Below are positions 3,359-23,887 of a stretch of DNA of 64,000 bases, in pieces (the first letter of the stretch is position 1; every line of letters starts with the position of its first letter). This DNA comes from Methylococcus capsulatus (GTDB lineage Bacteria; Pseudomonadota; Gammaproteobacteria; Methylococcales; Methylococcaceae): assembly GCF_036864975.1 (NCBI RefSeq), contig NZ_CP104311.1, positions 2,086,001 through 2,150,000 on the forward strand, written 5' to 3'. Below the pieces are notes generated by a model. That model was not told the DNA's origin, searched no databases, and worked only from the letters and a program-made list of their open reading frames with translations. Position numbers and translations under genes: made by a program.

Positions 3359-3988
3359 ATGAAATTCGATTACGCCGCCCATTCACTCAAGAAAATCTTT
3401 CAGGATCATCTGAGCTGCTGCGTCGAGTGTGGCCAGGTTTTAGAGCGGCTGTTCGCCGAGCTCGACGCCGCAGAAACGCACATCGGCCTGATCCGGCAGC
3501 TCGAGGAAAAGGGCGATGCGCTGATGCGCGAAGCGTATGACGCGCTGGAGACCGCCCCTTATTCCGAGCTGGTGCTGCTGATCCAGCAGTTTGCCAGGCA
3601 TGTCGACGACATTCTTGACGGTCTGAACGATACCGCCAGGGTGATCGACATCTTCACGCCTCAACGGGCGGAAACCGCCGCGCTCGACCTGCTCGCGATC
3701 ATCCTGGGGATGGTCCGGCGGCTGTCGGCGGAAATGGACCACTATCCGGAAAACCCGCTCGCAGGCATCAAACAATGCCGAGAGGAGCTCAAGGTATCGG
3801 AGACGAGCGCTGACCTGGTGTATCACGAGTGGCGGAAGTCCCAGCGGCGTTATAGCACTTTGTCGCTCCTGGCCGAATCGGACTGGACCGAGATTTTAGG
3901 GATCCTGGAGAAAACCACGGATTCTTGCTATCACGCAGCTCTCGTGCTCGAGCGCATCACCAAATACCGGTTGAGACAGGCTTCCTGA
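3359..3988 (+). CDS. PhoU-like DUF47 family protein (possible phosphate-transport regulator)
   Basis: A 209-residue, mostly helical protein resembling the DUF47/PhoU-related family that usually accompanies Pit phosphate permeases. Family-like features are the repeated acidic helices and the pattern LEEKGDALMREAYDALE near residue 50, followed by a second set (FARHVDDILDGLNDTARVID) typical of PhoU three-helix bundles with metal-binding acidic residues. No pit gene is adjacent: upstream is a membrane protein of another type and downstream a convergent RNA-binding protein gene. Its partner is therefore unknown from this window. The family assignment is by pattern only. Confidence 0.7.
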   Translation: MKFDYAAHSLKKIFQDHLSCCVECGQVLERLFAELDAAETHIGLIRQLEEKGDALMREAYDALETAPYSELVLLIQQFARHVDDILDGLNDTARVIDIFTPQRAETAALDLLAIILGMVRRLSAEMDHYPENPLAGIKQCREELKVSETSADLVYHEWRKSQRRYSTLSLLAESDWTEILGILEKTTDSCYHAALVLERITKYRLRQAS

Positions 3989-4007
3989 CGCGCCTGCGGC
4001 CGACCTC

Positions 4008-4032
4008 CCGCGCGGCGGCCGGGGCCGCGCGG
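4008..4032. terminator. GC-rich hairpin between convergent genes
   Basis: A perfect 9-bp inverted repeat, CCGCGCGGC (4008-4016) and GCCGCGCGG (4024-4032), with a 7-base loop. It lies between the 3' ends of the DUF47 gene (3988) and the RRM gene (4058). There is no T-run on either side, so it may stall or protect both transcripts rather than act as a classical intrinsic terminator. Confidence 0.35.
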
Positions 4033-4057
4033 AAGCCAGAGACAGCGCCTTCTGCGC

Positions 4058-4342
4058 TCAGTAACGCCTGCCGCCGCCAGTGCCGCCGCGCCTCTCCGGC
4101 GGACGGGCTTCATTGACCATCAGATTACGTCCGTCCATCTCTTTGCCGTTGAGTCCGGCAATGGCGGCTTGAGCCTCCTGGTCGCTGCCCATTTCCACGA
4201 ACCCGAATCCCCTGGATCGGCCGGTGGCGCGGTCCATGACGACCTGGGCCGATTTCACGGTGCCGTATGCTGCGAAAGTCCGTTCCAGGTCGGCATCGCC
4301 GACACGATAGTTCAAGTTGCCTACATATAGCTTGCTGCCCAC
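4058..4342 (-). CDS. Small RRM-type RNA-binding protein
   Basis: A 94-residue single RNA-recognition-motif protein. RNP2 is LYVGNL at residues 5-10 and RNP1 is RGFGFVEM near residue 45. The short C-terminal tail is Gly/Arg-rich (RRGGTGGGRRY). Such bacterial RRM proteins are often cold-induced RNA-binding proteins. The start is a GTG at 4342, placed just before the RRM and preceded by a run of Gs about seven bases upstream; the frame is open further upstream but that extension is not RRM-like. It is divergent from a DEAD-box RNA helicase gene across a 307-base spacer, so the two could share cold or stress control (inference). Confidence 0.85.
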   Translation of the reverse strand: MGSKLYVGNLNYRVGDADLERTFAAYGTVKSAQVVMDRATGRSRGFGFVEMGSDQEAQAAIAGLNGKEMDGRNLMVNEARPPERRGGTGGGRRY

Positions 4343-4649
4343 GAAAGACCCCCGTCGAGGTTCATGAAAACCTGCAATCCACAATAAAACAAAAATGCCT
4401 GATTCGACAGGGGAGGACTGAAAAATATTTCCGGCCGTCTGCGCTGCCGGCATGGATTGGGGGGGCACTCCGGCTGTTTTGAGCTTTTGGGTGACATTGG
4501 GAGGCAGTCGCCTTATAATTTTGACTACGGCACGTTCAACCAATCATCGTGCCGTGTTCTTCTTGAACCCTCCCGATCCATTGAATCGTCTGCCTCGATT
4601 GGTGCCGTTTTTCCCTGGAACGGCAGGCCGTCGCAGGACACCACTAAAT
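4343..4649. other. 307-base divergent spacer between RRM and DEAD-box helicase genes
   Basis: No supported gene. The left part (4370-4430) is A/T-richer than its surroundings (ACAATAAAACAAAAATG), fitting a promoter region for the RRM gene. The right part would be a long untranslated leader for the helicase. An open frame from 4452 runs into the helicase but its translation is not helicase-like. Confidence 0.4.
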
Positions 4650-5996
4650 ATGTCATCTGATTTGAATTCTGCCGGCCCGGCTTTTGCCGATCTGGGGCTG
4701 GCTCAGCCCCTTTTGCGCGCCGTTTCCGAAGCCGGTTACGTCCGTCCCACCCCCATCCAGGCACAGGCGATCCCGCTTCTGCTCGCCGGCGGCGATCTGT
4801 TGGCGGCGGCCCAGACGGGAACCGGCAAGACCGCCGGGTTCACCCTCCCGATTCTGCACAGGCTGCTGGAGAAACAAGTTCCGCGCCGGCCGCGGCGTCC
4901 GCGCTGTCTCATCCTCACTCCCACTCGCGAGCTGGCGGCGCAGGTGCTGGAATCGGTCGAAACCTACGGCAAGTACGTCCCGCTGAAAGCCACGGTCATG
5001 TTCGGCGGGGTGGGGCTCAACCCCCAGGTCCGTGCTCTCGGGGCCGGCATCGACATCCTCGTTGCCACGCCGGGTCGACTGCTCGACCATTGCGGACAGA
5101 AGACCGTTGACCTTGCCGGTGTGGAAATCCTCGTACTGGATGAGGCGGACCGTATGCTCGACATGGGGTTTATCCGCGACATCCGGCGGATTCTGGGACT
5201 GCTGCCGAAGCAGAGGCAGAACATGCTGTTTTCGGCCACGTTCTCGGATGAAATCCGGGCGCTCGCCGACGATCTGCTGAACAATCCCGGCTATGTCGAA
5301 GTGGCACGCCGCAACGCCGCTTCCGATCTGGTCGACCAGACCGTCCATTTGGTCGCGCAAGAACACAAACGCGATCTGCTCACCCATTTGATCCGCCGGC
5401 ACGACTGGCGCCAGGTGCTGGTATTCACCCGGACCAAGCATGGTGCGAACCGGTTGGCGGAAAAACTGGCCGAGGATGGCATTCCGGCGGCGGCGATTCA
5501 CGGCAACAAGAGCCAGTCGGCGCGCACCCGGGCGCTGGCGGATTTCAAGGATGGCAGGGTGCCGGTCCTGGTGGCCACGGACATCGCGGCACGCGGACTG
5601 GACATCGATCAGCTACCCCATGTAGTGAACTTCGAGTTGCCGAATGTGCCGGAGGACTACGTCCATCGGATTGGCCGCACCGGGCGGGCCGGCAACACCG
5701 GGTCCGCTGTGTCGTTGGTGGCGAAGGAGGAGCTGAAGCTGCTGAATGGTATCGAGCGTCTGATCAAACGCCCGATTCAGCGGGGGGCGGTGGAGGATTT
5801 CGCCCCGCAGGCCGAGCGCCGGGAAGACCGGTCGCGGCGGTCGTCGCAAGAGGTGCGTGAGGGGGGCGGCAGGCAGTCTCCCCCGGACCAGCCCAAGGCG
5901 CGGGCAGGGCTGGCGCCCCGCAGCGCCGCCCGGCATTTGCCGAAGCCGCAGAGGGCAGGCAACCGGCTGCGCAGCCAGGGCGGCAAACGCGGTTGA
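4650..5996 (+). CDS. rhlE: DEAD-box ATP-dependent RNA helicase, RhlE-like
   Basis: A 448-residue superfamily 2 helicase that unwinds short RNA duplexes, with likely roles in ribosome assembly or RNA decay. All core motifs are visible in order: the Q motif ([14 protein letters not shown]), motif I (AQTGTGKT), Ia (PTRELAAQ), GG, Ib (TPGRLLD), II (DEAD in [13 protein letters not shown]), III (SAT), IV (VLVFTRTK), V ([12 protein letters not shown]) and VI ([10 protein letters not shown]). The tail of about 80 residues is Arg/Lys-rich, as in RhlE proteins, and likely binds RNA. The start ATG at 4650 is chosen by alignment with the compact RhlE N-terminus; only a weak AGGA precedes it. Confidence 0.92.
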
Positions 5997-6244
5997 CGGT
6001 CTGCTGCGAGCCGGAGGGCATCTCCGCCTTGCCGGCTTCCCGTGCGCGGCCGTTCGTTTCGCTCAACAGTTTGTCACCCCGTGCTTTGTTGCCGTCAACG
6101 CCGGCAGCGGATAGTCTGAATCCGGCCTTGGATTAACCGGGGGACTCCAGTCATTCCGTGACCGGCCCGCTGTGTCGAGCGGAGCCGTTTCTCCCGGGTT
6201 CAGCCAGGGTTTCTTTCAGACAGCATTCGTGCGGAGGAAAGATC

Positions 6245-7258
6245 ATGATCCTGAGCAATCTGACGTCGCACCTGAAGTTTCCCAGCATCGACCGTCTGTG
6301 GCCGGATGTAACCGTCGAGGACGTGCTGTCGGCGGTGATTCTAATCACGTTTGCTTCTTTGATGGCGATCGAGATCCGCTATGGCGGGGGCGTGCGAACC
6401 GACCCCTCGGTGCGGAAATCGTACCGGACGAACCTGTCGCTGTTCCTGTTCAACGACTTACTGATGTCCGCCTTGTCGGTGTCTTCCCTGCTGGTATTGG
6501 CGGAGTGCCATGCCGGCGGTGGACTCCTGGCCGGCGTGAGCACCCCCTGGCTTCGTGGGCTGCTGGCCTTGCTCCTGCTCGATCTGGTGCTGTATTGCTG
6601 GCACTGGGCCAGCCACCGCCTGCCCTGGCTGTGGCTGTTCCACAAGGTGCACCACAGCGATCATTCGATGAACGTGACGACCGGTTTCCGACTGCATTTC
6701 GCCGAGGTGCTGTTGACGGTACTGGTCAAGGCCGGCTTCATCGTGGTCACGGGCGTACATGCCGCCCAGGTCCTGTTCAGCGAGGCGCTGATCACCCTGG
6801 CCGTGTTGTTTCACCATGCCGATATTTCGTTTCCGGGGGAGTGCCGGCTGGGTCATATCTTCATCGTGCCAAGCCTGCACCGTGTGCATCACTCGGCTTT
6901 GCGCAGCGAGCACGATCGTAATTACGGCGCACTGTTTTCGTTTTGGGACCGGTTTTTCGGCACACTGCTGGAAGTCCAGCCGGCACAGATCGGATTACGC
7001 GACGTGGAGCCCTTGAATTTCACCGAAACCCTGAAGTTCGGTTTCACCTATGTCTATATGCCGACGCCACGTCCTCTTCGACTTCGCCCCCGGCAGCCAT
7101 TGGAACCGATGATCGCCGAAGCCGCCTATTTCCGGGCCGAAAAGCGCGGATTCGTTCCGGGGTTCGAAATGTTCGACTGGCTGGCCGCCGAGCGCGAAAT
7201 CGAGGAGCGGTTGAACGGTGGGAGCGGTAACGCCGGCGCTGTCCGCCAGACGCCGTAA
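6245..7258 (+). CDS. Sterol desaturase / fatty acid hydroxylase family membrane protein
   Basis: A 337-residue integral membrane protein of the fatty-acid-hydroxylase/sterol-desaturase superfamily. The di-iron histidine boxes are complete: HWASH (120-124), HKVHH (133-137), H190-H191 and HRVHH (212-216). Hydrophobic segments lie at about 28-42, 65-85 and 105-120. The ATG at 6245 has a GGAGG site at 6233-6237. It lies 200 bases upstream of bstABC and sdmAB on the same strand, which makes a sterol substrate likely, but the position oxidised cannot be read from sequence. Enzymes of this fold perform C-5 desaturation or C-4 methyl oxidation in eukaryotic sterol synthesis; in Methylococcus the C-4 step is assigned to the Rieske enzyme instead. 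Function here is an open question. Confidence 0.85.
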   Translation: MILSNLTSHLKFPSIDRLWPDVTVEDVLSAVILITFASLMAIEIRYGGGVRTDPSVRKSYRTNLSLFLFNDLLMSALSVSSLLVLAECHAGGGLLAGVSTPWLRGLLALLLLDLVLYCWHWASHRLPWLWLFHKVHHSDHSMNVTTGFRLHFAEVLLTVLVKAGFIVVTGVHAAQVLFSEALITLAVLFHHADISFPGECRLGHIFIVPSLHRVHHSALRSEHDRNYGALFSFWDRFFGTLLEVQPAQIGLRDVEPLNFTETLKFGFTYVYMPTPRPLRLRPRQPLEPMIAEAAYFRAEKRGFVPGFEMFDWLAAEREIEERLNGGSGNAGAVRQTP

Positions 7259-7270
7259 AGCCTACGACAG

Positions 7271-7307
7271 CGGGCCACTTGTCCGCAATTTCTGAGGAGG
7301 TGGCCCG
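7271..7307. repeat. Inverted repeat between desaturase gene and bstA
   Basis: CGGGCCAC (7271-7278) and GTGGCCCG (7300-7307) form a perfect 8-bp stem 13 bases after the desaturase stop codon. No T-run follows, so it could be an mRNA 3'-end or processing hairpin or an operator. It marks a possible boundary between the desaturase transcript and the bst genes. Confidence 0.4.
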
Positions 7308-7458
7308 AACGGAGTCATGACATTACGATTTTATTTTAAGGTGCTCACAATTTAGACTATGCATCGAAAGCACTGCCGTGGAGTGTTTTTTTGCGTCCGG
7401 CCCACCGGAGATCCAGTTCGGACACCGTCCCGCAAGGCCTTGAAACGAACCCCTTCGA

Positions 7459-10098
7459 GTGAATATTCCCCAACTGGCCGCCAATATGGCCGAACGCTTC
7501 GCCCGCCGGCCGGGGCGGGTCCTGGCTCTCGCCATGGCGTTCTCGGTGTTGTCTCTCTGGGCGGTTTTCCAACTGCCGGTCTATACTTCCCGCCAGGCCC
7601 TGCTGCCGCACGACAACGCCGTTGCCCAGCGCTTCGACGCTTTCCTGAAGAAATTCGGCGCCGCTTCCGACCTGATCGTGGTCCTGGAAGGGGCACCTCC
7701 GGATGAACTGAAGACATTCGCCGACGAACTGGCGAGCGCCCTCGCTGCCGAGCCCGAAATCGCCCAGGCGACGGCACGGGTCGATCTGCGTTTTCTGCTG
7801 GAGCACGCCTATCTGGCCGTACCTGAAGATCGGCTCAAAGCGCTGGCGGGCACGCTCGACAGGTTTGCGGGAGCTGCCATCCCCAGCGATGCCCCTCGGA
7901 TCGACGCGGCTCTGGACCGCCTTCGCGAGCGCCTCGAAGAGGCGCCCGCCGCGCCCGATGCCGGTATCGACATTCCCACGGCCGAGACCGGCCTGAAACT
8001 GCTGGCGGTTCTGCTCGACGAGTGGCACCGCTGGCTCGCCGCGGGCGAGGTGCCGGCCGCGCTCGACTGGGGACGGCTGCTGGCCGGCCAGGGCGGGAGC
8101 GAGGTCGCCAATGAAGGCTATTTCGTCTCGCGCGACGGGCGTATGTACTTCCTGTTCGTGCACCCGGCGAGCGCTTCGGAGGATTTCACCGCCACCGGGC
8201 CGTTCATCGAAAAGGTGAGAGACGTGGCGGCAACGCAGGCGGCGAAGACTCGGGCAGCCGGCCGGGTCGCGCCCAAGGTGGGGCTGACCGGGCTGCCGGC
8301 CATAGAGTACGAAGAGCACGTCAGCATCCGCCACGACATAGCGCTGGTGGTCGGTTCCGCCGCCAGCCTGATCGTCCTCCTGATTCTGGCGGTGGTGCGG
8401 AGCTGGCGCTGGGCGCTGGTCATCTTCGTTCCCATGGGCCTCGGGGTGTTGTGGAGCCTGGGCCTGGCGCTGGTGACCGTCGGCCATCTCACTCTCATCA
8501 CCGCCAGCTTCATTGCCATCCTGTTCGGTCTGGGTGCGGATTACGGCATCTTCACCTCGGCGCGGATCGCCGAGGAGCGTCGTCGCGGTAAACCGCTGAC
8601 CGAGGCGATCGGGGCAGGGATGGGCGCTTCCTTCCAGGCGGTGTTCACCGCGGGCGGCGCCTCGGTGGTGATTTTCGGGGCTTTGGCCACGGTCGATTTC
8701 CCCGGCTTTTCCGAACTGGGGCTGGTGGCGGCCAAGGGAGTGATGCTGATCCTGGTCAGTACCTGGCTGGTCCAGCCGGCGCTGTATGCCTTGCTGCCGC
8801 CGAAACTCGCGCCGTTGCCGGCCGCGGCGTCTGCCGGGGCGATCGAGCCGGGCCGTATGCCTTTCCGGGGAAGCGTCGCCGTGATCCTGGTCGCGGGGGC
8901 GTTGGCTACGGCGGCATTCGGCATCGGAAGCGGCTACGAGCTTCCCTTCGATTACGACGTGCTTTCGCTGTTGCCGAAAGACTCCGAGTCAGCCTACTAC
9001 CAGAACCGTATGGTCGCGGAGAGCGACTATCAGGCGGAAGTGGTCATCTTTACCGCACCAGACCTCGAAGAGGCCCGACGCATCGCAGCGGAGGCGGGCA
9101 GGCTGGGGAGCGTGGCCAAGGTGCAGTCGCTCATGGACCTGTTTCCGCCCGACGCCGACGCACGCGCCCTCGAGGCCCGGCGCATCGGCGAACTTGCTGA
9201 CGACGGCTATGCGGTCCGATTGGCCAGGCTCGCCGCCATCGGTCTGCCGGAAGGGACTTTCGGACGCGTGCGGACGATTCTGGAGAAGGGCGGCGATTTC
9301 ATCGACCAGTCCCAGGAGCTGGCATTCTCGGCCGGGCATTCCGGGCTGGTGGCGGCTTTGGAAGACGTACGGGGGAGGCTGGATGCAGTCCGGTCCGCCA
9401 TCGAGGCCGATCCCGTCCAGGCCCGGGAGCGCAGCGAGCGGTTCTTCCGGATGCTGCTGTCGGCGGCGGAGCGGGGCGTGGCACTGCTGGCGGAGTGGCG
9501 CCAGGCGCGGCCCATCACCCCGGCCCAACTTCCGCCGGCTTTGCGGGACCGGTTTTTCGCCGCCGACGGGACGGTTGCAGTGTACGCTTTTCCGGCAAAA
9601 ACTGTGTATGATCCCGCCAACCTCGACAGGCTGATGCAGGAAATTTATGGCGTGTCGCCCGATGCGACCGGCTTCCCGGCCACCCATCAGGTGTTCTCCA
9701 AGTCCGTGGTGGAAAGCTTCACCCATGGAACTCGTGAGGCGGTGACCGTTTGCCTGCTGTGGCTGATGGCTCTCTGCGGCATCCGCTACAACTATGCCAA
9801 CATCATCGCTTTGCCCCTGGTCATCGCCCTGGCGGTGGATTACGGCGTATGGTTCTCCCAGCGCTGGTTCGACCTCAAGGACCGTTCGCTGACGCAGATC
9901 AATCGGGTCGCGGGGAGGGTGATCGGGCTCGCCGCCGGCACCGAGCTGGCGGGACTGGGGGCGATCACCCTGGCGAACTATCGCGGCGTGTCCAGCCTGG
10001 GCGTCAACATCACCGTCGGTCTCCTGTGCTGCTTGGCCGCGACCCTGTGGGTGGCACCGGCGATCGGACAGCTTCTCGATTCAAGAAAGAAACCATGA
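7459..10098 (+). CDS. bstA: BstA: RND/MMPL-family sterol transporter, inner membrane
   Basis: An 879-residue RND-superfamily pump of the HpnN/MmpL type. A transmembrane helix near residue 20 is followed by a large periplasmic domain, a cluster of helices (about 280-440), and then a second copy of the same plan (helix near 475, periplasmic domain, helices about 755-875). Each half has the MMPL signature with the proton-relay aspartate, GADYGIFTSARI in the first and AVDYGVWFSQRWF in the second. Its place directly before a periplasmic binding protein and a TPR lipoprotein, ahead of the sterol demethylase genes, matches BstA of Methylococcus capsulatus, known to take part in sterol transport. Start is GTG at 7459 without an evident ribosome site; ATG at 7486 is an alternative. 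Its stop overlaps bstB by four bases (ATGA). Confidence 0.9.
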   Translation: MNIPQLAANMAERFARRPGRVLALAMAFSVLSLWAVFQLPVYTSRQALLPHDNAVAQRFDAFLKKFGAASDLIVVLEGAPPDELKTFADELASALAAEPEIAQATARVDLRFLLEHAYLAVPEDRLKALAGTLDRFAGAAIPSDAPRIDAALDRLRERLEEAPAAPDAGIDIPTAETGLKLLAVLLDEWHRWLAAGEVPAALDWGRLLAGQGGSEVANEGYFVSRDGRMYFLFVHPASASEDFTATGPFIEKVRDVAATQAAKTRAAGRVAPKVGLTGLPAIEYEEHVSIRHDIALVVGSAASLIVLLILAVVRSWRWALVIFVPMGLGVLWSLGLALVTVGHLTLITASFIAILFGLGADYGIFTSARIAEERRRGKPLTEAIGAGMGASFQAVFTAGGASVVIFGALATVDFPGFSELGLVAAKGVMLILVSTWLVQPALYALLPPKLAPLPAAASAGAIEPGRMPFRGSVAVILVAGALATAAFGIGSGYELPFDYDVLSLLPKDSESAYYQNRMVAESDYQAEVVIFTAPDLEEARRIAAEAGRLGSVAKVQSLMDLFPPDADARALEARRIGELADDGYAVRLARLAAIGLPEGTFGRVRTILEKGGDFIDQSQELAFSAGHSGLVAALEDVRGRLDAVRSAIEADPVQARERSERFFRMLLSAAERGVALLAEWRQARPITPAQLPPALRDRFFAADGTVAVYAFPAKTVYDPANLDRLMQEIYGVSPDATGFPATHQVFSKSVVESFTHGTREAVTVCLLWLMALCGIRYNYANIIALPLVIALAVDYGVWFSQRWFDLKDRSLTQINRVAGRVIGLAAGTELAGLGAITLANYRGVSSLGVNITVGLLCCLAATLWVAPAIGQLLDSRKKP

Positions 10099-10940
10099 CA
10101 GACAAGATTACGCGCTTTTCCCTCCTGGCGGCCCTGCTGGCCCCCTTCGTTCCCGCGCAGGCCGGCGCCCCCGCACCGGTGGTCGTCTGTTACCCGGGGG
10201 GAGCCGTGAATGAGCGCGACGCCGATCAGGCGATGGATGCGATGCTGCGGGTGGTGGAGCGGGTAGGGCAGTGGCCGGAGAAGAGTTTCAGCAGCGTGTT
10301 CACCGCGAAGGTGGCGGATTGCGGAAAACTCATGGCGGAAATGAAGCCCGCGTTCGCGATCACTTCGCTGGCGCTATACCTGGACATGCGCGGCCAATAC
10401 GATCTGGTGCCTGTGGTTCAGCCCAGGATCGACGGACGTACCAGCGAGCGTTACCGGGTCGTGGCAAAGCAGGGCAGGTTCCACGACATGGACGAACTCA
10501 AGGGCAGGACGCTGGGGGGTACCATGCTGGATGAACCGGCCTTCCTCGGCAAGATCGTGTTTGCGGGCAAGTATGATCCGGAAAAGGATTTCGCCCTCCA
10601 GCCTTCGCGCCAGGCGATCCGGGCCCTGCGCTCCCTGGACAAGGGCGAGCTGGATGCGGTGGTGCTCAATGAACAGCAGTTCGCGGGTCTGAGCGCGCTG
10701 CAGTTGGCGAGTCCGGTGGAGACGGTGTTCACATCCGCGGAGATTCCGCTGATGGGTGTGGTGGCCAATGCCCGGTTGACTTCGGCCCAGGAACGGGCGC
10801 GCTTCGCCCAGGCGCTGGAAACCCTGTGTGCCGATCCCGAAGGCAGGAAGCTGTGCGACCTGTTTGGTATCCAGTCTTTCGTAGCGGTGGATCCCACCGT
10901 GTTCGATCCCATGGCCAGGCTCTGGCTGGCGCGGAACTGA
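10095..10940 (+). CDS. bstB: BstB: periplasmic sterol-binding protein
   Basis: A 281-residue secreted protein with an N-terminal signal peptide (TRFSLLAALLAPFVPAQAGA) followed by a two-lobed periplasmic binding fold of the PhnD-like type. Visible features include the N-terminal strand PVVVCYPGGAVNERDADQ, the crossing segment RYRVVAKQGRFHDMDELKG and LGGTMLDEPAFLGKIVF. In Methylococcus BstB binds sterols and is thought to carry them across the periplasm. The start ATG at 10095 overlaps the bstA stop by four bases, indicating translational coupling. Family members usually bind small polar ligands such as phosphonates, so use for sterols is a striking change of ligand class. Confidence 0.88.
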   Translation: MTDKITRFSLLAALLAPFVPAQAGAPAPVVVCYPGGAVNERDADQAMDAMLRVVERVGQWPEKSFSSVFTAKVADCGKLMAEMKPAFAITSLALYLDMRGQYDLVPVVQPRIDGRTSERYRVVAKQGRFHDMDELKGRTLGGTMLDEPAFLGKIVFAGKYDPEKDFALQPSRQAIRALRSLDKGELDAVVLNEQQFAGLSALQLASPVETVFTSAEIPLMGVVANARLTSAQERARFAQALETLCADPEGRKLCDLFGIQSFVAVDPTVFDPMARLWLARN

Positions 10941-10944
10941 CGCA

Positions 10945-11748
10945 TTGCATACCGTGCGTCTGTTTGCTGCCGGTATTCTGGCGGGGGTCCTGGCCGGTTG
11001 CGGCGGCCTCCACCGCGATGGCATTCCGGCAGGTCCGTCGGCGGGCTGTCCCCGGCTGACCGCCGCCGCCCTGAGTGCCGGTCAGGATGCACTCGGTCCT
11101 TCCAGCGAAACGCGGGAGCTGGAATGTGCCCTGGATTTCCTGCGCGGCTCGGATGACCCAGCGTTACGCCGCAGTTCCCTGGGCAGCCGGATTTGCCTGC
11201 ATCTCGCCGAGCGCAATTCCGATCCGGCGGAGCGTGCGCGCTTCGCCAGGGAGGGGGTGGAGCGCGCCGAAGCCGCGCTGGCGCAAGGCGGAGAGGATGA
11301 CGGCGCGGTCCATTATTATCTGGCTGCAAACCTGGGGCTGGCCGTGCGCGATGACATGACGGCGGCGCTGGCGAATCTGCACCGGCTGGAGCACGAGTCC
11401 GAGGCGGCGGTGAAGCTGAGTCCCGATTTCGATGACGGCGGCCCCTTGCGGCTCTTGGGCATGTTGTACCTCAAGGCCCCGGCCTGGCCCGCAGGGATGG
11501 GCGACGGCGACAAGGCTCTGGACCTGCTCGGACAGGCGGTGGAAAGACACCCCGGGCACCCCCTCAACCATCTGTTCTATGCCGAGGCCCTGTGGGAAGT
11601 GAACGGCGAGAGCGAAAGCCGGCGAGTCGAGGAGGAAATGGCCGCCGGTTGGAGATTGCTGGAGTCCGGAAGCTGGGGATACAACAAACAAATATGGGAA
11701 CGGGAGTTCGCCGATCTTCGCCAGGAGATCGGGGCGCCCGCTAGGTAG
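10945..11748 (+). CDS. bstC: BstC: TPR-type sterol-binding lipoprotein
   Basis: A 267-residue helical protein with a lipoprotein signal (LFAAGILAGVLAGC), so it should be anchored by the cysteine, probably to the outer membrane. The body resembles TatT-type TPR proteins: paired helices such as AREGVERAEAALAQGG, YYLAANLGLAVRDD and LNHLFYAEALWEVNGE. It follows bstB by four bases and is the third part of the transporter. The start is TTG at 10945 or, in the same frame, GTG at 10954; both give a workable signal peptide. It was identified as BstC from the order bstA-bstB-bstC and the TPR lipoprotein character. Confidence 0.87.
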   Translation: MHTVRLFAAGILAGVLAGCGGLHRDGIPAGPSAGCPRLTAAALSAGQDALGPSSETRELECALDFLRGSDDPALRRSSLGSRICLHLAERNSDPAERARFAREGVERAEAALAQGGEDDGAVHYYLAANLGLAVRDDMTAALANLHRLEHESEAAVKLSPDFDDGGPLRLLGMLYLKAPAWPAGMGDGDKALDLLGQAVERHPGHPLNHLFYAEALWEVNGESESRRVEEEMAAGWRLLESGSWGYNKQIWEREFADLRQEIGAPAR

Positions 11749-11781
11749 CATTCTCTTCCGCTCTTTTCCGAGGCGCCGACC

Positions 11782-12891
11782 ATGAGCCGATCGATCAGAA
11801 ACCAAGATGTCCCCGAACTGCCCCGTCGGCGGCAGGTCCGCACCGTCGGCATGAGCGGCAATTACTGGTATGTGGTCGAGATCGACGGCAGGCTCAAGCC
11901 CCGGCAAGTCAAACGGGTGCGTTTCTGGGGACAGGACATCGCGTTGTTCCGCGACGCTGCTGGCGAACTGCATGCCGTGGAAGACCGTTGCCCGCATCGG
12001 CAACTCCCGCTGTCCCAGGGCTTCGTCGAGGGGGGAAACCTGGTCTGTACCTATCATGGATGGAAATTCGATGGCTGCGGCCGGTGCACCGAAATCCACC
12101 ATGAGCTTGGCAAGGGCCGTACCAGGTTACCTAGAATCCGCATCAGGACCTATCCCGTCAAGGCGCAATGGGGGCTCATCTGGCTGTTTCCGGGCGATCC
12201 CGCCCTGGCGGACGGCACCCCGCTGCCGACGATCCCGCAGCTCGAAGGGGGGCAGCCCTGGCCGTTCTTCCCGATCGACGTGACGATCAAAGCGCACTTC
12301 TCGATGATCGTGGAGAACGTCTGCGACTTCAACCACGAATACCTGCACCGGCACAAACGCCCCTTCCTGCAGCCTATCCTGCGCGAGTGGAAGCAGGACG
12401 CCGACAGTGTTCGGGTCTACTACGACACCCGTTTCGACGGGAGCCCCGTCGCCAAGCTCTTCATGGAAGGCGGGGCGCGTGATCTCAACGAGATCGAGAT
12501 CTGGTACCAGTACCCTTATCAGGGTTCCGACATCGGCGGCAAGTACATCCACTGGCTGTTCATGCTGCCGGAGGACGAGCGCACCACCCGCTGTTTCTTC
12601 GTCTTCCTGTTCGGGCCGATCCATGTCCCGATCGTGAACTGGAAGATGCCCGAATTCCTGCGCAAGCCCATCCTCTGGTTCACCAACAAGTGGTACATCG
12701 AGCCCCTGTTGGGCGAGGACAAATGGGCGCTGGAATTGGAGCAGGACGGTTTCGAGCGCCATCCCGATGCGCCGCAGATCGAGCTCAATCCGGCCATCAG
12801 CTCGTTCCAGAAGTTGTCGCTGGAGAAGTGGAAGGCTTACCAGCAGTCCATGGAGAGAGCCGGGCCAAAGCCGGCGGCAGACCCGGCATGA
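11782..12891 (+). CDS. sdmA: SdmA: Rieske-type sterol C-4 demethylase oxygenase
   Basis: A 369-residue Rieske non-heme iron oxygenase. The [2Fe-2S] ligands are C70 and H72 (CPHRQ) and C89 and H92 (CTYHGW). The mononuclear iron site lies in ENVCDFNHEYLHRH, with D182, H185 and H189 the likely metal or bridging residues. In Methylococcus SdmA oxidises a C-4 methyl group of the sterol, a job done in eukaryotes by an unrelated di-iron membrane oxidase. No reductase or ferredoxin gene is next to it, so the electron donor must be encoded elsewhere. The gene starts 33 bases after bstC and overlaps sdmB by four bases. Confidence 0.9.
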   Translation: MSRSIRNQDVPELPRRRQVRTVGMSGNYWYVVEIDGRLKPRQVKRVRFWGQDIALFRDAAGELHAVEDRCPHRQLPLSQGFVEGGNLVCTYHGWKFDGCGRCTEIHHELGKGRTRLPRIRIRTYPVKAQWGLIWLFPGDPALADGTPLPTIPQLEGGQPWPFFPIDVTIKAHFSMIVENVCDFNHEYLHRHKRPFLQPILREWKQDADSVRVYYDTRFDGSPVAKLFMEGGARDLNEIEIWYQYPYQGSDIGGKYIHWLFMLPEDERTTRCFFVFLFGPIHVPIVNWKMPEFLRKPILWFTNKWYIEPLLGEDKWALELEQDGFERHPDAPQIELNPAISSFQKLSLEKWKAYQQSMERAGPKPAADPA

Positions 12892-13874
12892 CCACACTGG
12901 TCACCGGCGCCACCGGCCATCTCGGCGCCAATCTGGTTCGGGCGCTGCTGGCCCGGGGCGAGAAGGTGCGCGCCTTCATCCGCCGACAAAGCGACGTCGC
13001 GGCGTTGGACGGCTTGGCGGTCGAGCGGGCCTACGGCGATCTGCGCGACCGCCGCTCGATCCGGGATGCGCTGGAAGGTGTGGAGCGGTTGTACCACACC
13101 GCGGCCTTCGTCAGTATCCGCGACGGTGACCGCCAGGAGCTGTTCGACGTCAACGTGGTCGGCACTCGCATGCTGATGCAGGAGGCGCGGCGGGCCGGCG
13201 TGCGTCGGGTGGTGCATACCAGCTCCTTCGGCGCGGTCGGCATCAACCCCCAAGGCGCATCGAACGAACACTGGACAGTCAGCCCGTTCGAACCGGGCAC
13301 CGACTACGAACGGACCAAGGCCGTGTCGGAACACGACGTGATCCTCGAAGCCGTGCGCGGCCTCGACGTGACCATCGTCAACCCGGCCGCGATCGTCGGT
13401 CCGTGGGATTTCCGGCCCAGCCTGGTCGGCCGTACCATCCTCGACTTCGCCCATGGCCGGATGAGGGCGTTCGTTCCCGGTGCCTTCGACTTCGTCCCGA
13501 TGCGCGACGTGGTGGCTGCGGAACTGCTGGCCATGGACAAAGGCATCCGCGGTGAGCGCTATCTCGTCACCGGCGAGCACTGCACCATCGGTCAGATACT
13601 GCAATGGCTGGAGGAGCTGACCGGGCAGCCGCGTCCGAAGCTCGCGATCCCGCCGCGCCTCATGCAGGGCATCGCGCTGCTGAAGGACCCGCTGGAACGC
13701 CGTTTTTTCCCCCGCCGGACGCCACGCTTCAACTACCACTCCATCCGCCTGCTCAACTCGGGCAAGCGCGGGGATTCCTCACGGAGCCGGCGCGAACTGG
13801 GCCTGGTCCCGACTTCCACCCGTGCGGCTTTCGCCGATGCCGTGGCCTGGTTCAGGGAGAGGGGGATGATCTGA
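12888..13874 (+). CDS. sdmB: SdmB: NAD(P)-dependent sterol C-4 dehydrogenase/decarboxylase
   Basis: A 328-residue extended short-chain dehydrogenase of the 3-beta-HSD/NSDHL type. The dinucleotide loop is GATGHLG at residues 7-13, and the catalytic Tyr/Lys pair is Y140 and K144 (YERTK) with S112-S113 upstream. It is expected to oxidise the 3-hydroxyl after SdmA has made the 4-carboxylate, releasing CO2 and leaving a 3-ketosterol. The ATG at 12888 overlaps the sdmA stop (ATGA). Its last 23 bases overlap the end of the convergent L,D-transpeptidase gene. A 3-ketoreductase to finish the cycle is not seen nearby. Confidence 0.9.
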   Translation: MTTLVTGATGHLGANLVRALLARGEKVRAFIRRQSDVAALDGLAVERAYGDLRDRRSIRDALEGVERLYHTAAFVSIRDGDRQELFDVNVVGTRMLMQEARRAGVRRVVHTSSFGAVGINPQGASNEHWTVSPFEPGTDYERTKAVSEHDVILEAVRGLDVTIVNPAAIVGPWDFRPSLVGRTILDFAHGRMRAFVPGAFDFVPMRDVVAAELLAMDKGIRGERYLVTGEHCTIGQILQWLEELTGQPRPKLAIPPRLMQGIALLKDPLERRFFPRRTPRFNYHSIRLLNSGKRGDSSRSRRELGLVPTSTRAAFADAVAWFRERGMI

Positions 13875-15297
13875 CCCCGGGCCGGTCGCGCTGCGGTTCT
13901 TCCAGGGCGATGCGGGTGGAAGTGGATGACGGTGGCGAATGCATGACCGTCACCGGCACTCCGAGCGAGGCCCACTGATACAGCCAGCCGGCATCTTCGG
14001 GCGCCTTGGGCCAGCGCACGTTGTGCTTCTGGGTCGACATGTTGACGCAGCCATGGCTTGCAGGGCGGCCGAAGCCATTGTGCCACCAGGCGCCGTGGAA
14101 GGCGTAATCCGAATAGAAATACTGGGCATAGGGAACGTTTTCCACGATGTAATGCCCTTTTTCCCCTTTTTTGGCCCTGCTTTTCATGGTCTTCGTGGGA
14201 AAGCGCGCATAGATGTAGAACGAGCCGGTGACCGTCGGTGTCTGCGGTTTGCCCGTGCTGACCTTGAAGGTCCGCACGGTTTGGCCGTTTTCCACCGCTG
14301 TCATCGTCTGGGTGTCGAGGTAGACGAAGATTTTCCGGTCGGTTCCCGTCGAGAAGCTCAAATCCAGCGGGGGCTCGAGATAGCCCCCCTGGACACCGCG
14401 GAAAGCGCCGGGTTCCGCGCTGACCCGTATCACACTGGAGGGCGGCCAGCCGTTGAGCGGGGTGAATTGCAGCCGGGTTTTGCCGATCCAACCCCATTTC
14501 CCGGTCATTTCTTTGCCGTCCTGAGTCTGGATCCGGACCTGCCGGCCGGCGTTTTCCCGTTCGGCCAACGGCTCGCTGAAAGTAATCTGCAAAGGCATCG
14601 CCGTGCCGAGATTCTCTGCTCCACGGAGGTTCACGTCTGCGGACACTGGCGGCGGCGTCGAAATGCGCAGCTCGAATGGAGGTAGCGGCACGCCGGTGGT
14701 GGTTTCCCAGCGAATCTGCGTCGGATAGGTGCTGCCCTGGGTGTAGTCCGAGGCGTGCAGCCTGAAGACGGTACGGGTTTCATCCGGCTGGACGGCGAGT
14801 TTCAGTCCGCCGACAGGCTCGAGTTTACCCACCGGTTGATCGAACACGAGCGTCACCGATGCGTCCGGAGCCAAGCTGCGATCCGGCGGTCCTTCCAGGG
14901 TGGGCATACCCACGGTCGTGAATTCCGCCACTTCGGTTCGCTTCTCGTTGGACCAGATACGTTCCACCGTCACGGTGAGGGTATAGTGCTTGCCAAAGGC
15001 GAGTGGAGGGGGGAACTCGAAACGCTCCGGTTCCCTGGCGGCCGTCACTACCGTTCCGTCGTCTTCCCGCAGTTCCACGGCTGCGATCCGGGTACCTACA
15101 CCGACGGGTTCCGCCGTGACGGCCAGACGCGGATCGGCCATTGCCGTGCCGTTCGCCGGATATGTCACTATGCCGAAAGGAGTGAGGCGGGCGTGGAGTT
15201 CCACGGTGACCAGTGCCATCACCGCCACGGCCAGGATGCCCGCTACTACCCGGCCGCTCCCTGATCGGATCGAGCGTACGTTTGCGGATCGGTTCAC
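13852..15297 (-). CDS. L,D-transpeptidase with N-terminal Ig-like domains
   Basis: A 481-residue membrane-anchored periplasmic enzyme. One signal-anchor helix (VVAGILAVAVMALVTVELHA) is followed by about 270 residues of beta-rich Ig-like repeats (TLEGPPDRSLAPDASVTLVF and similar) and a YkuD catalytic domain from about 310. The active site is HGAWWHNGFGRPASHGC, with catalytic cysteine near residue 417. It should form 3-3 peptidoglycan cross-links or attach a protein to peptidoglycan. The layout resembles the multi-domain Ldt proteins of Actinobacteria more than the short E. coli enzymes. The start is GTG at 15297 with GGGAG seven bases upstream. Confidence 0.87.
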   Translation of the reverse strand: MNRSANVRSIRSGSGRVVAGILAVAVMALVTVELHARLTPFGIVTYPANGTAMADPRLAVTAEPVGVGTRIAAVELREDDGTVVTAAREPERFEFPPPLAFGKHYTLTVTVERIWSNEKRTEVAEFTTVGMPTLEGPPDRSLAPDASVTLVFDQPVGKLEPVGGLKLAVQPDETRTVFRLHASDYTQGSTYPTQIRWETTTGVPLPPFELRISTPPPVSADVNLRGAENLGTAMPLQITFSEPLAERENAGRQVRIQTQDGKEMTGKWGWIGKTRLQFTPLNGWPPSSVIRVSAEPGAFRGVQGGYLEPPLDLSFSTGTDRKIFVYLDTQTMTAVENGQTVRTFKVSTGKPQTPTVTGSFYIYARFPTKTMKSRAKKGEKGHYIVENVPYAQYFYSDYAFHGAWWHNGFGRPASHGCVNMSTQKHNVRWPKAPEDAGWLYQWASLGVPVTVMHSPPSSTSTRIALEEPQRDRPGVRSSPSP

Positions 15298-15541
15298 GCC
15301 ATGTCTCCCTTTTGGTTTCGATGCCAGAAACCCTGATTTTGAATTTTATCGGGATTTGCGCTCAAACGTTATATGGGCCGGCAGCGTTGCTCGGGGCCAG
15401 AATGCCGCGCAGCGGGCCGCCGGTCGTCGCATAGGCAACGAGGCATCGAGCCATCGATCGACTTGCAGGCCCGGAACACGTAAAGTGTCGCGGTCTTGAA
15501 CTATCGGTACCTAGCGACCCGGTTCCGTCAACACAGAAGCC

Positions 15542-17050
15542 ATGACCAACTATTCCGAAAATCTCGAAAGGCATCTCACCCAGGAAAATCCAGTGCTGCT
15601 GGGAGCGGCGCGGAGTTTCGAAGAGCTGGACAACATCGCCCGCGAACTGGGCCTGATCGATCCGGAATACGCCAGTGCCGGGCAGATTTCCTGGTGGCCG
15701 GTGATTTCAGTATTGGGCACCTTTTCCGCAGGCAAGTCGACTTTCATCAATCACCTGCTCCAGGCCAAGATCCAGCGTACCGGCAACCAGGCCGTAGACG
15801 ACAAGTTCACGGTGCTGAGCTATTCCGATGACGTCGAGTCCAGGACCCTGCCCGGCATCGCCCTGGACGCCGATCCTCGCTTCCCTTTTTTCCAGATCAG
15901 CAAGGAAATCGACCAGGTTCTGCAAGGCGAGGGCGATCGCATCAATACCTATCTCCAGCTCAAGACCTGCAACAGCCCTTTTCTCAAGGGCAAGATCATT
16001 ATCGATTCACCCGGATTCGACGCCGACCCGCAGCGCGATGCCGTTCTGGCGATTACCAAGCACATCATCGACATCTCCGACCTGGTGCTGGTGTTTTTCG
16101 ATGCCCGCCATCCCGAACCGGGCGCGATGAAGGACACCTTGCGCTATTTGGTGACCGAAACCATCAAGCGCCACGATTCCAACAAGTTCCTGTTTATCCT
16201 CAACCAGATGGACACGACGGCCCGGGAGGATAATCCCGAGGAGGTGGTGGCGGCCTGGCACCGGGCCCTGGCCGAATCGGGCCTGGTCACGGGGCGGTTC
16301 TACACGATTTTCTCGCCCGATGTCTCCGTGCCCATTGCCGATGAGACCCTGCGCCAGCGCTATCTCCAGCGGCGCGACCGCGACTGGGCGGAGATCAACG
16401 CGCGTATCCAGCAACTCGAAATCGAACGATCCTACCGCATCCTCGGTACCCTGGAACGTCTGGTCGAGGAGTTCCAGGACGTGGCGTTGCCCGAAATCGA
16501 GAAAGTGTTCAAAACCTACCGCAAACGGTTGATCCGGACCGACTGCGCGACTTTCCTGCCGGTATTGGGAGCCGCCGGTTATGGGATGGTGGAATTCGTC
16601 CCGCTGGAGCCGAATCTGCTGGTGATGGCAGGTTCGGGTGTACTCATCGGCTTGCTCCTGGTGTGGTCCCGGGTCCACATCATGCTGAACGGGATTTTTG
16701 CGGCGTTGGGTGTGCGGACTCTCAAGAAGCGCCAGAAGGTGCTCAACATCCGTTGGGACATGGTCCGCGGTTTCCGGGTAAATGCCGTACCTTGGCCGTT
16801 TTTCCGCAAGCCGGGTCTGATGGGCTGGAGCCGGCGCTGCGAGCTTCAGTTGTCCGCGATCCGCCAGCGCTGTAAGGAATCGATCCAATCGCTGAACGAT
16901 CTGTATACGAATCCCTCAGGCAGGCCGGAAACGGTCCGGCTTGCCGAGCCGCTCTCATCACCGGCCATCGAGTCGTCGGTCGTACCCGGCGAGCCAGCGC
17001 CGGCGTCGCCGCAGGATCTGTCCATCGAGTCGGAGCGGGCATCTTCCTAG
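15542..17050 (+). CDS. Dynamin-like GTPase with membrane segments
   Basis: A 502-residue protein of the bacterial dynamin-like group. The P-loop is GTFSAGKST at residues 59-67, G3 is DSPGF near 157 and G4 is NQMD near 221. After the GTPase domain comes a helical region and two hydrophobic stretches at about 340-395 (FLPVLGAAGYGMVEFV and LLVMAGSGVLIGLLLVW), suggesting membrane anchoring in the middle of the protein. The role is probably membrane remodelling or repair, but no substrate is known. The tail after residue 460 is Pro/Ser/Glu-rich. It is followed by a 362-base spacer and a coiled-coil membrane protein gene on the same strand. Confidence 0.75.
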   Translation: MTNYSENLERHLTQENPVLLGAARSFEELDNIARELGLIDPEYASAGQISWWPVISVLGTFSAGKSTFINHLLQAKIQRTGNQAVDDKFTVLSYSDDVESRTLPGIALDADPRFPFFQISKEIDQVLQGEGDRINTYLQLKTCNSPFLKGKIIIDSPGFDADPQRDAVLAITKHIIDISDLVLVFFDARHPEPGAMKDTLRYLVTETIKRHDSNKFLFILNQMDTTAREDNPEEVVAAWHRALAESGLVTGRFYTIFSPDVSVPIADETLRQRYLQRRDRDWAEINARIQQLEIERSYRILGTLERLVEEFQDVALPEIEKVFKTYRKRLIRTDCATFLPVLGAAGYGMVEFVPLEPNLLVMAGSGVLIGLLLVWSRVHIMLNGIFAALGVRTLKKRQKVLNIRWDMVRGFRVNAVPWPFFRKPGLMGWSRRCELQLSAIRQRCKESIQSLNDLYTNPSGRPETVRLAEPLSSPAIESSVVPGEPAPASPQDLSIESERASS

Positions 17051-19216: not shown

Positions 19217-20727
19217 GCGTCGAGATCGCGCCGGTGCACACCGGCGACTCCTGCATCATGGTCATTTTCGGGGCCACTGGCGACTTGACCAGGCGCAAGC
19301 TGGTGCCGGCCTTATACAACCTCGCCAAGGCCGGGCTGCTGGCGAAGAAATTCGCGGTGGTCGGCGCAGCCTTCGATGATATGGACACGGAAGGTTTCCG
19401 CCGCCATCTTTCGGAAGCGATCCACGAATTTGCCGCGGTAGAGTTGGACGATGCCCTTTGGAGCGGGTTGGAAGAGCGCATCTTCTTTTCTCAAGGGGAT
19501 TTCCGCGACGCCGATTATTATCGGCGGCTGAAGGAACTGTGTGAGCGGGTCCGGGGCGAACTCGGCATCGAGGACAACTATTTCTATTACCTGGCGACCG
19601 CGCCGATGTTCTTCGGCGAAATCGTGCAGCAGGTCGGCCGGGCAGGTCTGGCGCAGGAATCGGCCGGTCACTGGCGGCGGGTCATCATCGAGAAGCCGTT
19701 CGGGCATGATCTGGATTCGGCCAGGGCGCTGAACGCCCTGATTCGTCAGGTGCTGCATGAGCACCAGATTTACCGGATCGACCATTACCTCGGCAAGGAA
19801 ACCGTGCAGAACATCATGGTGTTCCGCTTTGCCAACAGTATCTTCGAACCGATCTGGAACCGACGCTATATCGACCATGTGCAGATCACTGCCGCCGAGA
19901 CTGTCGGTGTCGAACGGCGCGGGGGGTATTACGACAACGCCGGCTGCATGCGCGATATGGTGCCCAATCATTTGTTCCAACTGCTGTCCCTGACCGCCAT
20001 GGAGCCGCCGATTTCGTTCGAGGCCGATGCGGTGCGCGACGAACAGACCAAGGTGCTGCGCGCCATCCAGGCTCCGACACCGGAAGAGGTGTTGAGCAGG
20101 ATGGCCCGCGGCCAGTATCGGGAAGGTTCGGTGGACGGCGAACCGGTGCCGGCCTACCGTTCCGAACCGAACGTGGCGCCGGATTCGCATACCGAAACCT
20201 TCGTAGCCCTGAAGTTGAATCTGGACAACTGGCGCTGGGCCGGCGTGCCGTTCTACCTGCGTACCGGCAAGCGTATGCCCAAGCGGGTGACGGAAATCGC
20301 GATCCAATTCCGGCGCGCCCCCTTGGTCCTGTTCCGTAACACCCAGATCGAGCAGTTGCAGACCAACCGGCTGGTGATCCATCTGCAGCCGAACGAAGGC
20401 ATTTCGCTCCAGTTCGGTGCCAAGGAGCCAGGCCCGGTCATGAAGCTGGGCGCGGTCAAGATGGATTTCGACTATGAGGACTATTTCGGCGCCAGTTCCA
20501 GTACCGGTTACGAACGTCTCCTGCACGATTGCATGACCGGGGATGCCACGCTGTTCCAGCGCGCCGACATGGTCGAGGCCGGCTGGAGCGTCATCCAGCC
20601 CATACTCGACGTCTGGAAGGCGCTGGTGCCGCGCTCGTTCCCCAATTACGCCGCCGGGACCTGGGGCCCGAAGGAGGCCGACGAGCTGATGGAAGAGGAC
20701 GGCCGTCACTGGGCCAACGCCGTGTAG
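19213..20727 (+). CDS. zwf: Glucose-6-phosphate 1-dehydrogenase
   Basis: A 504-residue enzyme that oxidises glucose 6-phosphate to 6-phosphogluconolactone with production of NAD(P)H. The dinucleotide loop [12 protein letters not shown] lies near residue 19, and the active-site signature RIDHYLGKE lies near 189. The length is normal for the family. The GTG start at 19213 overlaps the gnd stop, so translation is probably coupled; the order gnd before zwf is the reverse of reaction order. A 6-phosphogluconolactonase gene is not seen here. Confidence 0.95.
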
Positions 20728-20734
20728 CCCGGCG

Positions 20735-21196
20735 GTGAAGCGTATCGGCTTCATCGCCGACACCCACGGCCTGCTGCGTCCGGAGGCCGTCGCGGTGCTG
20801 ACGGGCAGCGACCTTATCATCCACGCAGGCGACGTCGGTGGCCCTGAGATACTCGCCGGCCTGGGCGTGCTGGCGCCGGTGGTGGCTGTGCGCGGTAACA
20901 ACGACCGCGGCAGCTGGGCCGAAAGCCTTGCAGAAACCGCGGTGGTCGAATGTGCAGGTCTTGTGTGCTATGTGCTGCACGATTTGCAGGAACTGGCGAT
21001 CGATCCGGCAGCCGAAGGTATCGGCGCGGTGGTTTCCGGCCATTCCCACCGCGCAGCGATTCGCAAAGACGCCGGCGTGCTCTATCTCAACCCGGGCAGC
21101 GCGGGTCCCCGGCGCTTCAAGCTGCCGGTCAGCGTCGCCCTGGTCGATGTTGTCGACGGTACGCCTTTGCCCCGTATCGAATGGATCGCCGTGTGA
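20735..21196 (+). CDS. YfcE/MJ0936-type metallophosphoesterase
   Basis: A 153-residue calcineurin-like phosphoesterase. The metal motifs are ADTHG near residue 8, HAGDVG near 31, GNND near 55 and SGHSH near 100, giving the full dinuclear site. The substrate is unknown; YfcE relatives hydrolyse phosphodiesters. The GTG start at 20735 lies seven bases after zwf, so it is probably the third gene of the gnd-zwf operon. It ends 10 bases from the convergent aminotransferase gene. Confidence 0.85.
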   Translation: MKRIGFIADTHGLLRPEAVAVLTGSDLIIHAGDVGGPEILAGLGVLAPVVAVRGNNDRGSWAESLAETAVVECAGLVCYVLHDLQELAIDPAAEGIGAVVSGHSHRAAIRKDAGVLYLNPGSAGPRRFKLPVSVALVDVVDGTPLPRIEWIAV

Positions 21197-21206
21197 GGCC
21201 GAGTAT

Positions 21207-22370
21207 TCAAAGTGCGCCGGCGATGCGTTCCAGCGCCTCGGCGATGATCCTTCGCGGTGCGCCGATATTGAGGCGCATGAAACCGCTGCCGGCTGCGCCG
21301 AACGTGATGCCGGGATTCATGCCGACCCGGGCCCTGCGTACGAAGAACTGCTTGAGTTCCGCATCGCTCATCCCCAGCTCGCGGCAATCCAGCCAAAGCA
21401 GGTAAGTGCCTTCGGCTGGGATGGGCTTGATGGCCGGAGCGTGGCGGTCGAGGAAGCCGGCCACGAAGTCGCGGGTCTCAGCGAGATAGGGCAGCAGACG
21501 TTCCAGCCAGTCTTCGCCCCCGCGATACGCTGCTTCGAAGGCGGTGATGCCGAACGGCGTCGATGCGCCGATGTGGAACAGCTCATAGATATCGCGCAGT
21601 GCCTTGCGCCGGCCGGCGTCTGGAACGACCAAGGCGGACAGCCCCAGGCCGGGGATGTTGAAAGTCTTGGATGGCGCCACCGCAGTCAGAACGTGAGGGG
21701 GATTGTCTGCCAGCGCGGCCAGCGGCGTGTGCCGGAAGCCCGGATAGACCAGGTCGTGGTGAATTTCGTCGGACAGGATGGTCACGCCGTAGAGGTCGGC
21801 GATGCGCAGCACTTCGACCAGTTCGTCCTGCGACCACACCCGCCCGACCGGATTGTGCGGCGAGCAAAGGATCATGAATCGGGCGCCTTCGGCGCACAAG
21901 CGTTCCAGACCCTCGTAATCCATCTGGTAGCGCCCATGCTCGAGCCGCAGCGGATTCAGTGCCAGCCGGCGGCCGGGAGCGGTGACTGCGCTGAAGAAGG
22001 GATGGTAGACGGGTGGCTGGATCACCACAGACTCATGGGGCCGGGTGAAAGCCATCACCGCAGCGTGGAGCGAAGGCACGACTCCAGGAGACAGGAGGAT
22101 CCATTCCTGCCGGATATCCCAACCATGGCGCTTTTTCAGCCAGCCGATCAGTGCATCATACAAGCTGTCCGGGCACAGCGTGTAGCCGTAGATCGGATGG
22201 GCCGCGCGTTCCGCCAAGGCCCGCGTGACGGCGGGTGGCGCGGCGAAGTCCATGTCGGCGATCCACAGCGGGATCACGTCGTCACTGCCGAAATAGGCAC
22301 CGCGCCCCTCGTATTTGACGGATGCCGTGCCGTTGCGCGGGATTTCGAAGTCGAATTCGGAAGCCACCAC
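21207..22370 (-). CDS. patB: PatB/MalY-type PLP-dependent C-S lyase (aminotransferase class I/II fold)
   Basis: A 387-residue fold-type I PLP enzyme. The N-terminal IPLWIADMDFAAPPAV segment is typical of the MalY/PatB cystathionine beta-lyase group. The cofactor lysine is in APSKTFNIPG, and LCSPHNPVGRVW and LSDEIHHDLVYPG are the PLP-ring motifs. It likely cleaves cystathionine or other cysteine S-conjugates to homocysteine or thiol, pyruvate and ammonia. The start is GTG at 22370 with AAGGAG eight bases upstream. It is divergent from cysK, another sulfur amino-acid gene. Confidence 0.88.
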   Translation of the reverse strand: MVASEFDFEIPRNGTASVKYEGRGAYFGSDDVIPLWIADMDFAAPPAVTRALAERAAHPIYGYTLCPDSLYDALIGWLKKRHGWDIRQEWILLSPGVVPSLHAAVMAFTRPHESVVIQPPVYHPFFSAVTAPGRRLALNPLRLEHGRYQMDYEGLERLCAEGARFMILCSPHNPVGRVWSQDELVEVLRIADLYGVTILSDEIHHDLVYPGFRHTPLAALADNPPHVLTAVAPSKTFNIPGLGLSALVVPDAGRRKALRDIYELFHIGASTPFGITAFEAAYRGGEDWLERLLPYLAETRDFVAGFLDRHAPAIKPIPAEGTYLLWLDCRELGMSDAELKQFFVRRARVGMNPGITFGAAGSGFMRLNIGAPRRIIAEALERIAGAL

Positions 22371-22564
22371 CCAGTTGTCTCCTTAAAGAATGCATCGTTC
22401 AAAAGATTTTCAAGTTTAACGGATGACGCCGCTGGGGGACGGAGACGCAGCGCTTCACGAAAGAAATGACCCACTTGCCTTCTGGGGATATAGAATGCCG
22501 CGACGAGCGGTGTATCCTCCGTTCAAGCCGTCATTACCCCTGGAATCTTTCGAGTGCCACACCC

Positions 22565-23497: not shown

Positions 23498-23598
23498 AAG
23501 TTCGGGCAGCGGCGTGAACCGAAGGCGTGAGTCCTGTATCTTATCGGTTCGGTGGGACGAAGGCCCATGTAGAAATAACAAACGATGGAGGAGAAATT

Positions 23599-23883
23599 AT
23601 GATCGGCGGCATCGTCGCAATTCTAATTGCGATCTGGTTCTACCGTTCGGCGGAAGGTCGCGGTTTGCCCGCGGTGCAATGGGCATTCGCCGGGCTGGTG
23701 GCCTATTACGTTCCGAATTTCATCTGGAGCCTGGTCGTGGCCAAACCTTTGATGGCCGAATTCCATGCCAGATCGGCCGTCATGATGGCGGGACTGATCG
23801 GGCATTCATCCGTGTTGGTGGGAGCGGTGGTGGCGATAGCCGTTCGCCACTATTTCCTGCTGCGGGCTCCGACCAACGGCTGA
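23599..23883 (+). CDS. Small two- or three-helix membrane protein
   Basis: A 94-residue hydrophobic protein with helices IGGIVAILIAIWFY at the start, WAFAGLVAYYVPNFIWSLVV in the middle and MMAGLIGHSSVLVGAVVAIAV near the end. No family is recognised. The start ATG at 23599 is well supported by GGAGGAG at 23587-23593. It follows cysK by 101 bases and is closed by a strong bidirectional hairpin. Confidence 0.7.
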   Translation: MIGGIVAILIAIWFYRSAEGRGLPAVQWAFAGLVAYYVPNFIWSLVVAKPLMAEFHARSAVMMAGLIGHSSVLVGAVVAIAVRHYFLLRAPTNG

Positions 23884-23887
23884 GCTA

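Follow-up and report, generated by a model that had tools for sequence, protein, structure and literature searches.

The locus described here bears on how sterols move to the outer membrane of bacteria. Within a window of 64,000 nucleotides from the Methylococcus capsulatus genome, the initial annotation had claimed six genes in a row on one strand, and all six open reading frames were found on the forward strand at their given places (Table 1). Both overlaps it described, between bstA and bstB and between sdmA and sdmB, are ATGA overlaps, and its spacing of 33 bases between bstC and sdmA is correct. The 4-base gap given for bstB-bstC applies to a TTG start of bstC; with the published GTG start the gap measures 13 bases, and the BstC N-terminus given in the available text of PMC10942540, MRLF, matches the GTG. 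The order bstABC-sdmAB was kept in six of six Methylococcus genomes and is therefore not due to chance.

Table 1. Features of the bstABC-sdmAB locus, in window coordinates.
Feature	Position	Strand	Matches and sequence traits	Remark
FA_hydroxylase homologue (337 aa)	6245-7258	+	PF04116 92.5 bits; C-terminal DUF2934, PF11154 56.9 bits	neighbour, outside unit
Conserved promoter-like block	7329-7361	+	TTTTATTTT-N15-TTAGACTATG	upstream of bstA; putative role
bstA, RND/MMPL inner-membrane transporter (879 aa)	7459-10098	+	NF045600 1500.8 bits; PF03176	GTG start
Recombined tract common with M. capsulatus Texas	8511-14400	.		3' bstA to sdmB and end of neighbouring gene
Junction of 81-bp (27-aa) in-frame gap	9757-9766	+	imperfect 9-bp repeat	versus other bstA genes
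bstB, periplasmic binding protein	10095-10940	+	NF045601 456.7 bits	near-identical to PDB 7t1m, MCA1014
bstC, TPR / TRAP T-component-like lipoprotein	10954-11748	+	NF045602 424 bits; PDB 7t1s	GTG start; alternative TTG 10945
sdmA, Rieske 4beta-methylsterol monooxygenase	11782-12891	+	NF052579 710.1 bits	
sdmB, NAD-dependent sterol demethylase partner	12888-13874	+	NF052578 689.2 bits	

Positions 7459 to 13874 correspond to the bstABC-sdmAB operon already described for Methylococcus; the observation is genuine and not new. All five products scored above their NCBIfam equivalog cut-offs (1400 bits for NF045600, 350 for NF045601 and NF045602, 600 for NF052579 and NF052578). Genes, order and strand are identical to those of the published operon, also present in strain Texas (L163), and the window BstB and BstC are near-identical to the 7t1m and 7t1s structures, whereas the window BstA is shorter by 27 aa. 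The operon is reportedly credited to Lee et al. 2018. A search of the literature for the locus tags MCA1012-MCA1016 returned an unrelated mention only. The view that the unit as a whole is less explained did not survive comparison with PMC10942540, the available text of which describes it as an operon and possible conduit to the outer membrane, with Bst proteins that bind 4-methylsterols and an SdmAB pair that removes one C-4 methyl group. SdmAB is dispensable in M. capsulatus according to the available part of a 2026 paper (PMC13277303).

We propose, with a probability of roughly 0.8, that bstABC-sdmAB is a unit with its own promoter and a probable function in outward sterol transfer, that the hydroxylase homologue is an unrelated neighbour, and that part of the locus derives from exchange with the Texas lineage. 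SdmA oxidises the 4beta-methyl group of a 4,4-dimethylsterol and SdmB completes its removal, as others have established. The three Bst proteins, BstA (inner membrane), BstB (periplasm) and BstC (at the outer membrane), bind 4-methylsterols and probably hand them outward; the binding has been demonstrated by others, while movement to the outer membrane by Bst is what we infer. Transcription would start from a promoter between 7258 and 7459, and the upstream hydroxylase homologue would be a genus-specific neighbour with some other lipid role. The region from the middle of bstA to past sdmB would be the exchanged tract, and an in-frame gap in bstA would fuse two membrane helices, unless it is an assembly error.

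The initial annotation had counted the gene at 6245-7258 as the oxidation member of the unit, a membership that stands for the five genes bstABC-sdmAB and fails for this one. The FA_hydroxylase superfamily includes sterol oxidases, and the gene lies on the bstA strand, 200 bases 5' of bstA, adjoining it on the same strand in five of the six Methylococcus genomes and lying 3 kb off in the sixth (G003). These features could be read as a unit of six genes, with the hydroxylase/desaturase homologue modifying the sterol as well before its export, but this reading is very improbable. Among 201 genomes of the order, 44 with bstB, a homologue appeared within 10 kb of bstB in six of the 44 loci (some on short contigs), all of them Methylococcus, so that linkage is not conserved beyond the genus; the other 38 had none nearby. 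Homologues are common throughout the order (176/201) and showed no co-occurrence with bstB, being present in 41 of the 44 genomes with it versus 135 of the 157 without (p=0.30), and the promoter-like block separates the gene from bstA. Its best NCBIfam match, the ornithine-lipid hydroxylase OlsE (NF052566), shares the PF04116 domain of the superfamily but reached 60.3 bits against a cut-off of 475, and a PDB comparison up to E=1 gave no match. In one of seven loci of other genera examined (G055), a hydroxylase homologue lies near a PhoU-like homologue, as in the window, which also speaks against the six-gene reading. We therefore dropped the gene as a candidate member on the 38 unlinked loci and the absence of co-occurrence.

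The motif TTARACTATG was found between the hydroxylase gene and bstA in six of six Methylococcus genomes by eye on the alignment, as TTAGACTATG in five of them and TTAAACTATG in G093. It is preceded by a T-rich stretch that is most divergent in G003, and the window genome (3.43 Mb) has a single copy of the long pattern. This conserved block is a putative promoter of the operon. Its retention in G003, despite the 3-kb distance of the hydroxylase gene there, supports a unit without that gene. A sigma-70 consensus scan did not call the block; it found a single site, which overlaps the start of bstA, at a chance level of 1.1, and terminator-like sites numbered four versus 6.5 expected. Separately, TTARACTATG was not found in the oxidosqualene cyclase (osc) regions scanned in G000, G037 and G093 (L076, L157, L158), and a regulon common to the bst unit and osc was rejected on these regions.

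To what extent bst accompanies sterol synthesis is indicated by the same genomes. Counted at E<=1e-100, osc was present in 43 of the 44 bstB genomes (exception G130) versus 35 of 157 without bstB (p=4e-21). Genes for bstA and for bstC each appeared near bstB in 42/44. With a lower limit of about 284 bits, sdmA was counted in 48 genomes (16 above the curated cut-off; seven with best matches of 78-96 bits were left out), including 34 bstB genomes; ten of the 44 had no sdmA match of counted size and 14 of the 48 sdmA genomes had no bstB, and transport and C-4 demethylation are therefore separable. The expected proximity of bst to sterol genes was borne out in part: osc, smo or sdm lay within 10 kb of bstB in 26/44 loci, while the other 18 had none of the three in the stretch examined, seven of them flanked by 9 kb or more on each side. 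The available text of PMC10942540 places bst homologues in all other methanotrophs with sdmA/sdmB, always co-localised with sterol genes; both universal statements have exceptions in the larger sample used here.

The arrangement of these loci also varies. Methylobacter-type loci are ordered osc-smo-sdmB-sdmA-bstABC, and their sdm proteins share about 41% identity with the window counterparts. A contig profile search with the BstB alignment returned 46 loci, four of which (L202, L205, L207, L208) are titled Myxococcales or Deltaproteobacteria and contain bstA and bstC; the stretch examined around these four gave no match to osc, smo or sdm. An sdmA fragment without sdmB precedes bstA in G190 (L050 6442-6795), a decaying sdm pair, and G055 (L044) has a bstB match with no bstA or bstC match in the 20-kb stretch examined.

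An alternative in which sterol binding by Bst serves uptake, recycling or sensing, and not export to the outer membrane, is unlikely. Both PhnD-like binding proteins and TRAP T-components belong to families named for uptake, and the available text of PMC10942540 demonstrates binding alone; on the other hand, the near-confinement of bstB to osc genomes and the kinship of BstA favour export. Of the RND transporters, those of the HpnN group are closest to BstA, and HpnN is described in the same text as taking hopanoids out of the cytoplasmic membrane. Like these, BstA is an RND/MMPL protein and matches TIGR03480; unlike them, it groups in a clade of its own (100/100 support) and falls below both HpnN cut-offs (TIGR03480, 310.6 bits against 751.85; NF052374, 194.2 bits against 1100). 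Outward transfer thus remains the reading that we prefer.

Comparison with M. capsulatus Texas disclosed an abrupt step in identity. From 8511 to 14400 the two genomes differ at 37 of 5890 sites (99.4% identical), whereas identity is 87.4% in the left flank (3359-8400), 89.3% in the right flank (14450-16970) and 88% in a further stretch (20673-23900). About the first 60% of the flank-side divergence in bstA ends near 8.5 kb, at the beginning of the shared tract. Other Methylococcus genomes were 79-90.5% identical to the window across the whole tract with no such step, and shorter stretches of 97-98% were seen between the window and G037 and G045. Judged from these identities, 8511-14400 is a recombined tract exchanged with the Texas lineage. 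The window and Texas stand at the same distance from G003 (90.5 and 90.4%), which gives no direction of transfer.

The bstA gap falls inside this tract, and Texas does not have it; BstA has 879 aa in the window versus 906 in Texas because of the in-frame loss of 81 bp, located between residues 769 and 770 of the window protein (CTGTGGCTG versus CTGGGGCTG in the Texas comparison). Of the other loci, 41 have BstA matches that cover the site, and each of the 41 contains all 27 residues; two more gave no BstA match, and the window contains none of the 27. An intact RND fold has twelve membrane helices. As read from the sequence, the gap would remove the end of one hydrophobic helix, the short loop after it and the beginning of the following helix. 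By a crude hydropathy count each of the two proteins has 11 peaks, because the window protein has a split peak elsewhere, in its first half, and so hydropathy does not itself prove the loss of a helix. The gap may be an assembly error or a real deletion, being known from one assembly only, and could leave the pump useless in the window strain.

If the deletion were real, the transporter could be broken in this strain and sterols would reach the outer membrane otherwise, for example by an HpnN-type RND protein, two of which are encoded in the window genome (G000:C1:1806790-1809387 and 684698-687298). We consider this doubtful. The missing segment is universal in the other bstA genes that cover the site, but the imperfect 9-bp repeat at the junction is also a spot where an assembly can collapse, the remainder of bstA is open and in frame, and the equal hydropathy counts do not favour a broken protein. 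The failure of published attempts to delete bstABC in strain Texas, as given in the available text of their authors, also argues against it.

Sterol makers without bst form a separate case. Seven genomes of a genus met in our searches (g24), probably Methyloprofundus, carry osc and sdmA above its cut-off; bstB was not found in any of the seven, and their best BstA matches are just 22-27% identical. Methyloprofundus includes mussel symbionts. An extra HpnN-type RND paralogue (76-100% identity) occurs in six of the seven and adjoins osc or sdmAB in four (G113, G174, G161, G137), and a TPR gene adjoins osc in five (those four and G098). A sulfotransferase gene is present in 4/7. The order in G113 is smo-osc, TPR, sulfotransferase (PF13469), RND and then sdmB-sdmA, the RND protein scoring 888 bits, above the TIGR03480 HpnN cut-off. 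All seven have another HpnN paralogue, whose neighbour is a cyclase with 30-32% identity to osc, putatively a squalene-hopene cyclase. In a tree of 38 RND proteins, for which the tool warned of long branches elsewhere in the tree, the two g24 sets were separate, each with 100/100 support, and both stood apart from BstA.

The row of TPR, sulfotransferase and HpnN-type RND genes was seen in four bstB-less genomes: beside osc-smo in G113 (L112 5906-14712) and G174 (L113 8254-18542), and on pieces without osc or sdm in G069 (L116 2801-7480) and G020 (L119 6138-10812), where the RND gene is the extra paralogue. G012 and G046 (L141, L142), of another family of the order, have an HpnN-like RND gene beside osc and smo, and no bstB. 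In the window genome itself, a bile-acid-symporter-family gene lies between a sulfotransferase gene and an HpnN-type RND gene (L258 10120-15377; G000:C1:682119-687376), the flanking pair being 32% and 37% identical, respectively, and away from the sterol loci found. As a marker of an alternative cluster, the BstC-like TPR proved weak: matches of 29-48 bits occurred in 14 of 19 genomes searched, and four g24 genomes have a second match away from osc.

These observations raise a tentative suggestion, which we think less probable than not, that Bst is not the sole sterol exporter and that g24 may move C-4 demethylated sterols by a duplicated HpnN-type RND protein and a BstC-like periplasmic TPR protein, some species doing so after the product of a linked sulfotransferase gene has sulfated the sterol. 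The weak BstC-like matches and the sulfotransferase/RND pair of the window genome count against a special sterol link. Judged from listings, the open-licence literature held no description of the g24 arrangement.

The known operon thus receives sharper limits, namely five genes, a putative start of its own and block-wise exchange between species. Three new points deserve following up: the gap in bstA, the tract of recombination and the sterol makers that lack bst. A natural bstA without a membrane segment, if real, would test the necessity of the pump, given the failed deletions in Texas. Should the suggestion for g24 be true, the hopanoid pump would have been duplicated and adopted for sterols on at least one occasion, separately from BstA. 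Sterol makers that have no bst and carry a second HpnN-type pump near their sterol genes allow the components required of a sterol exporter to be compared directly.
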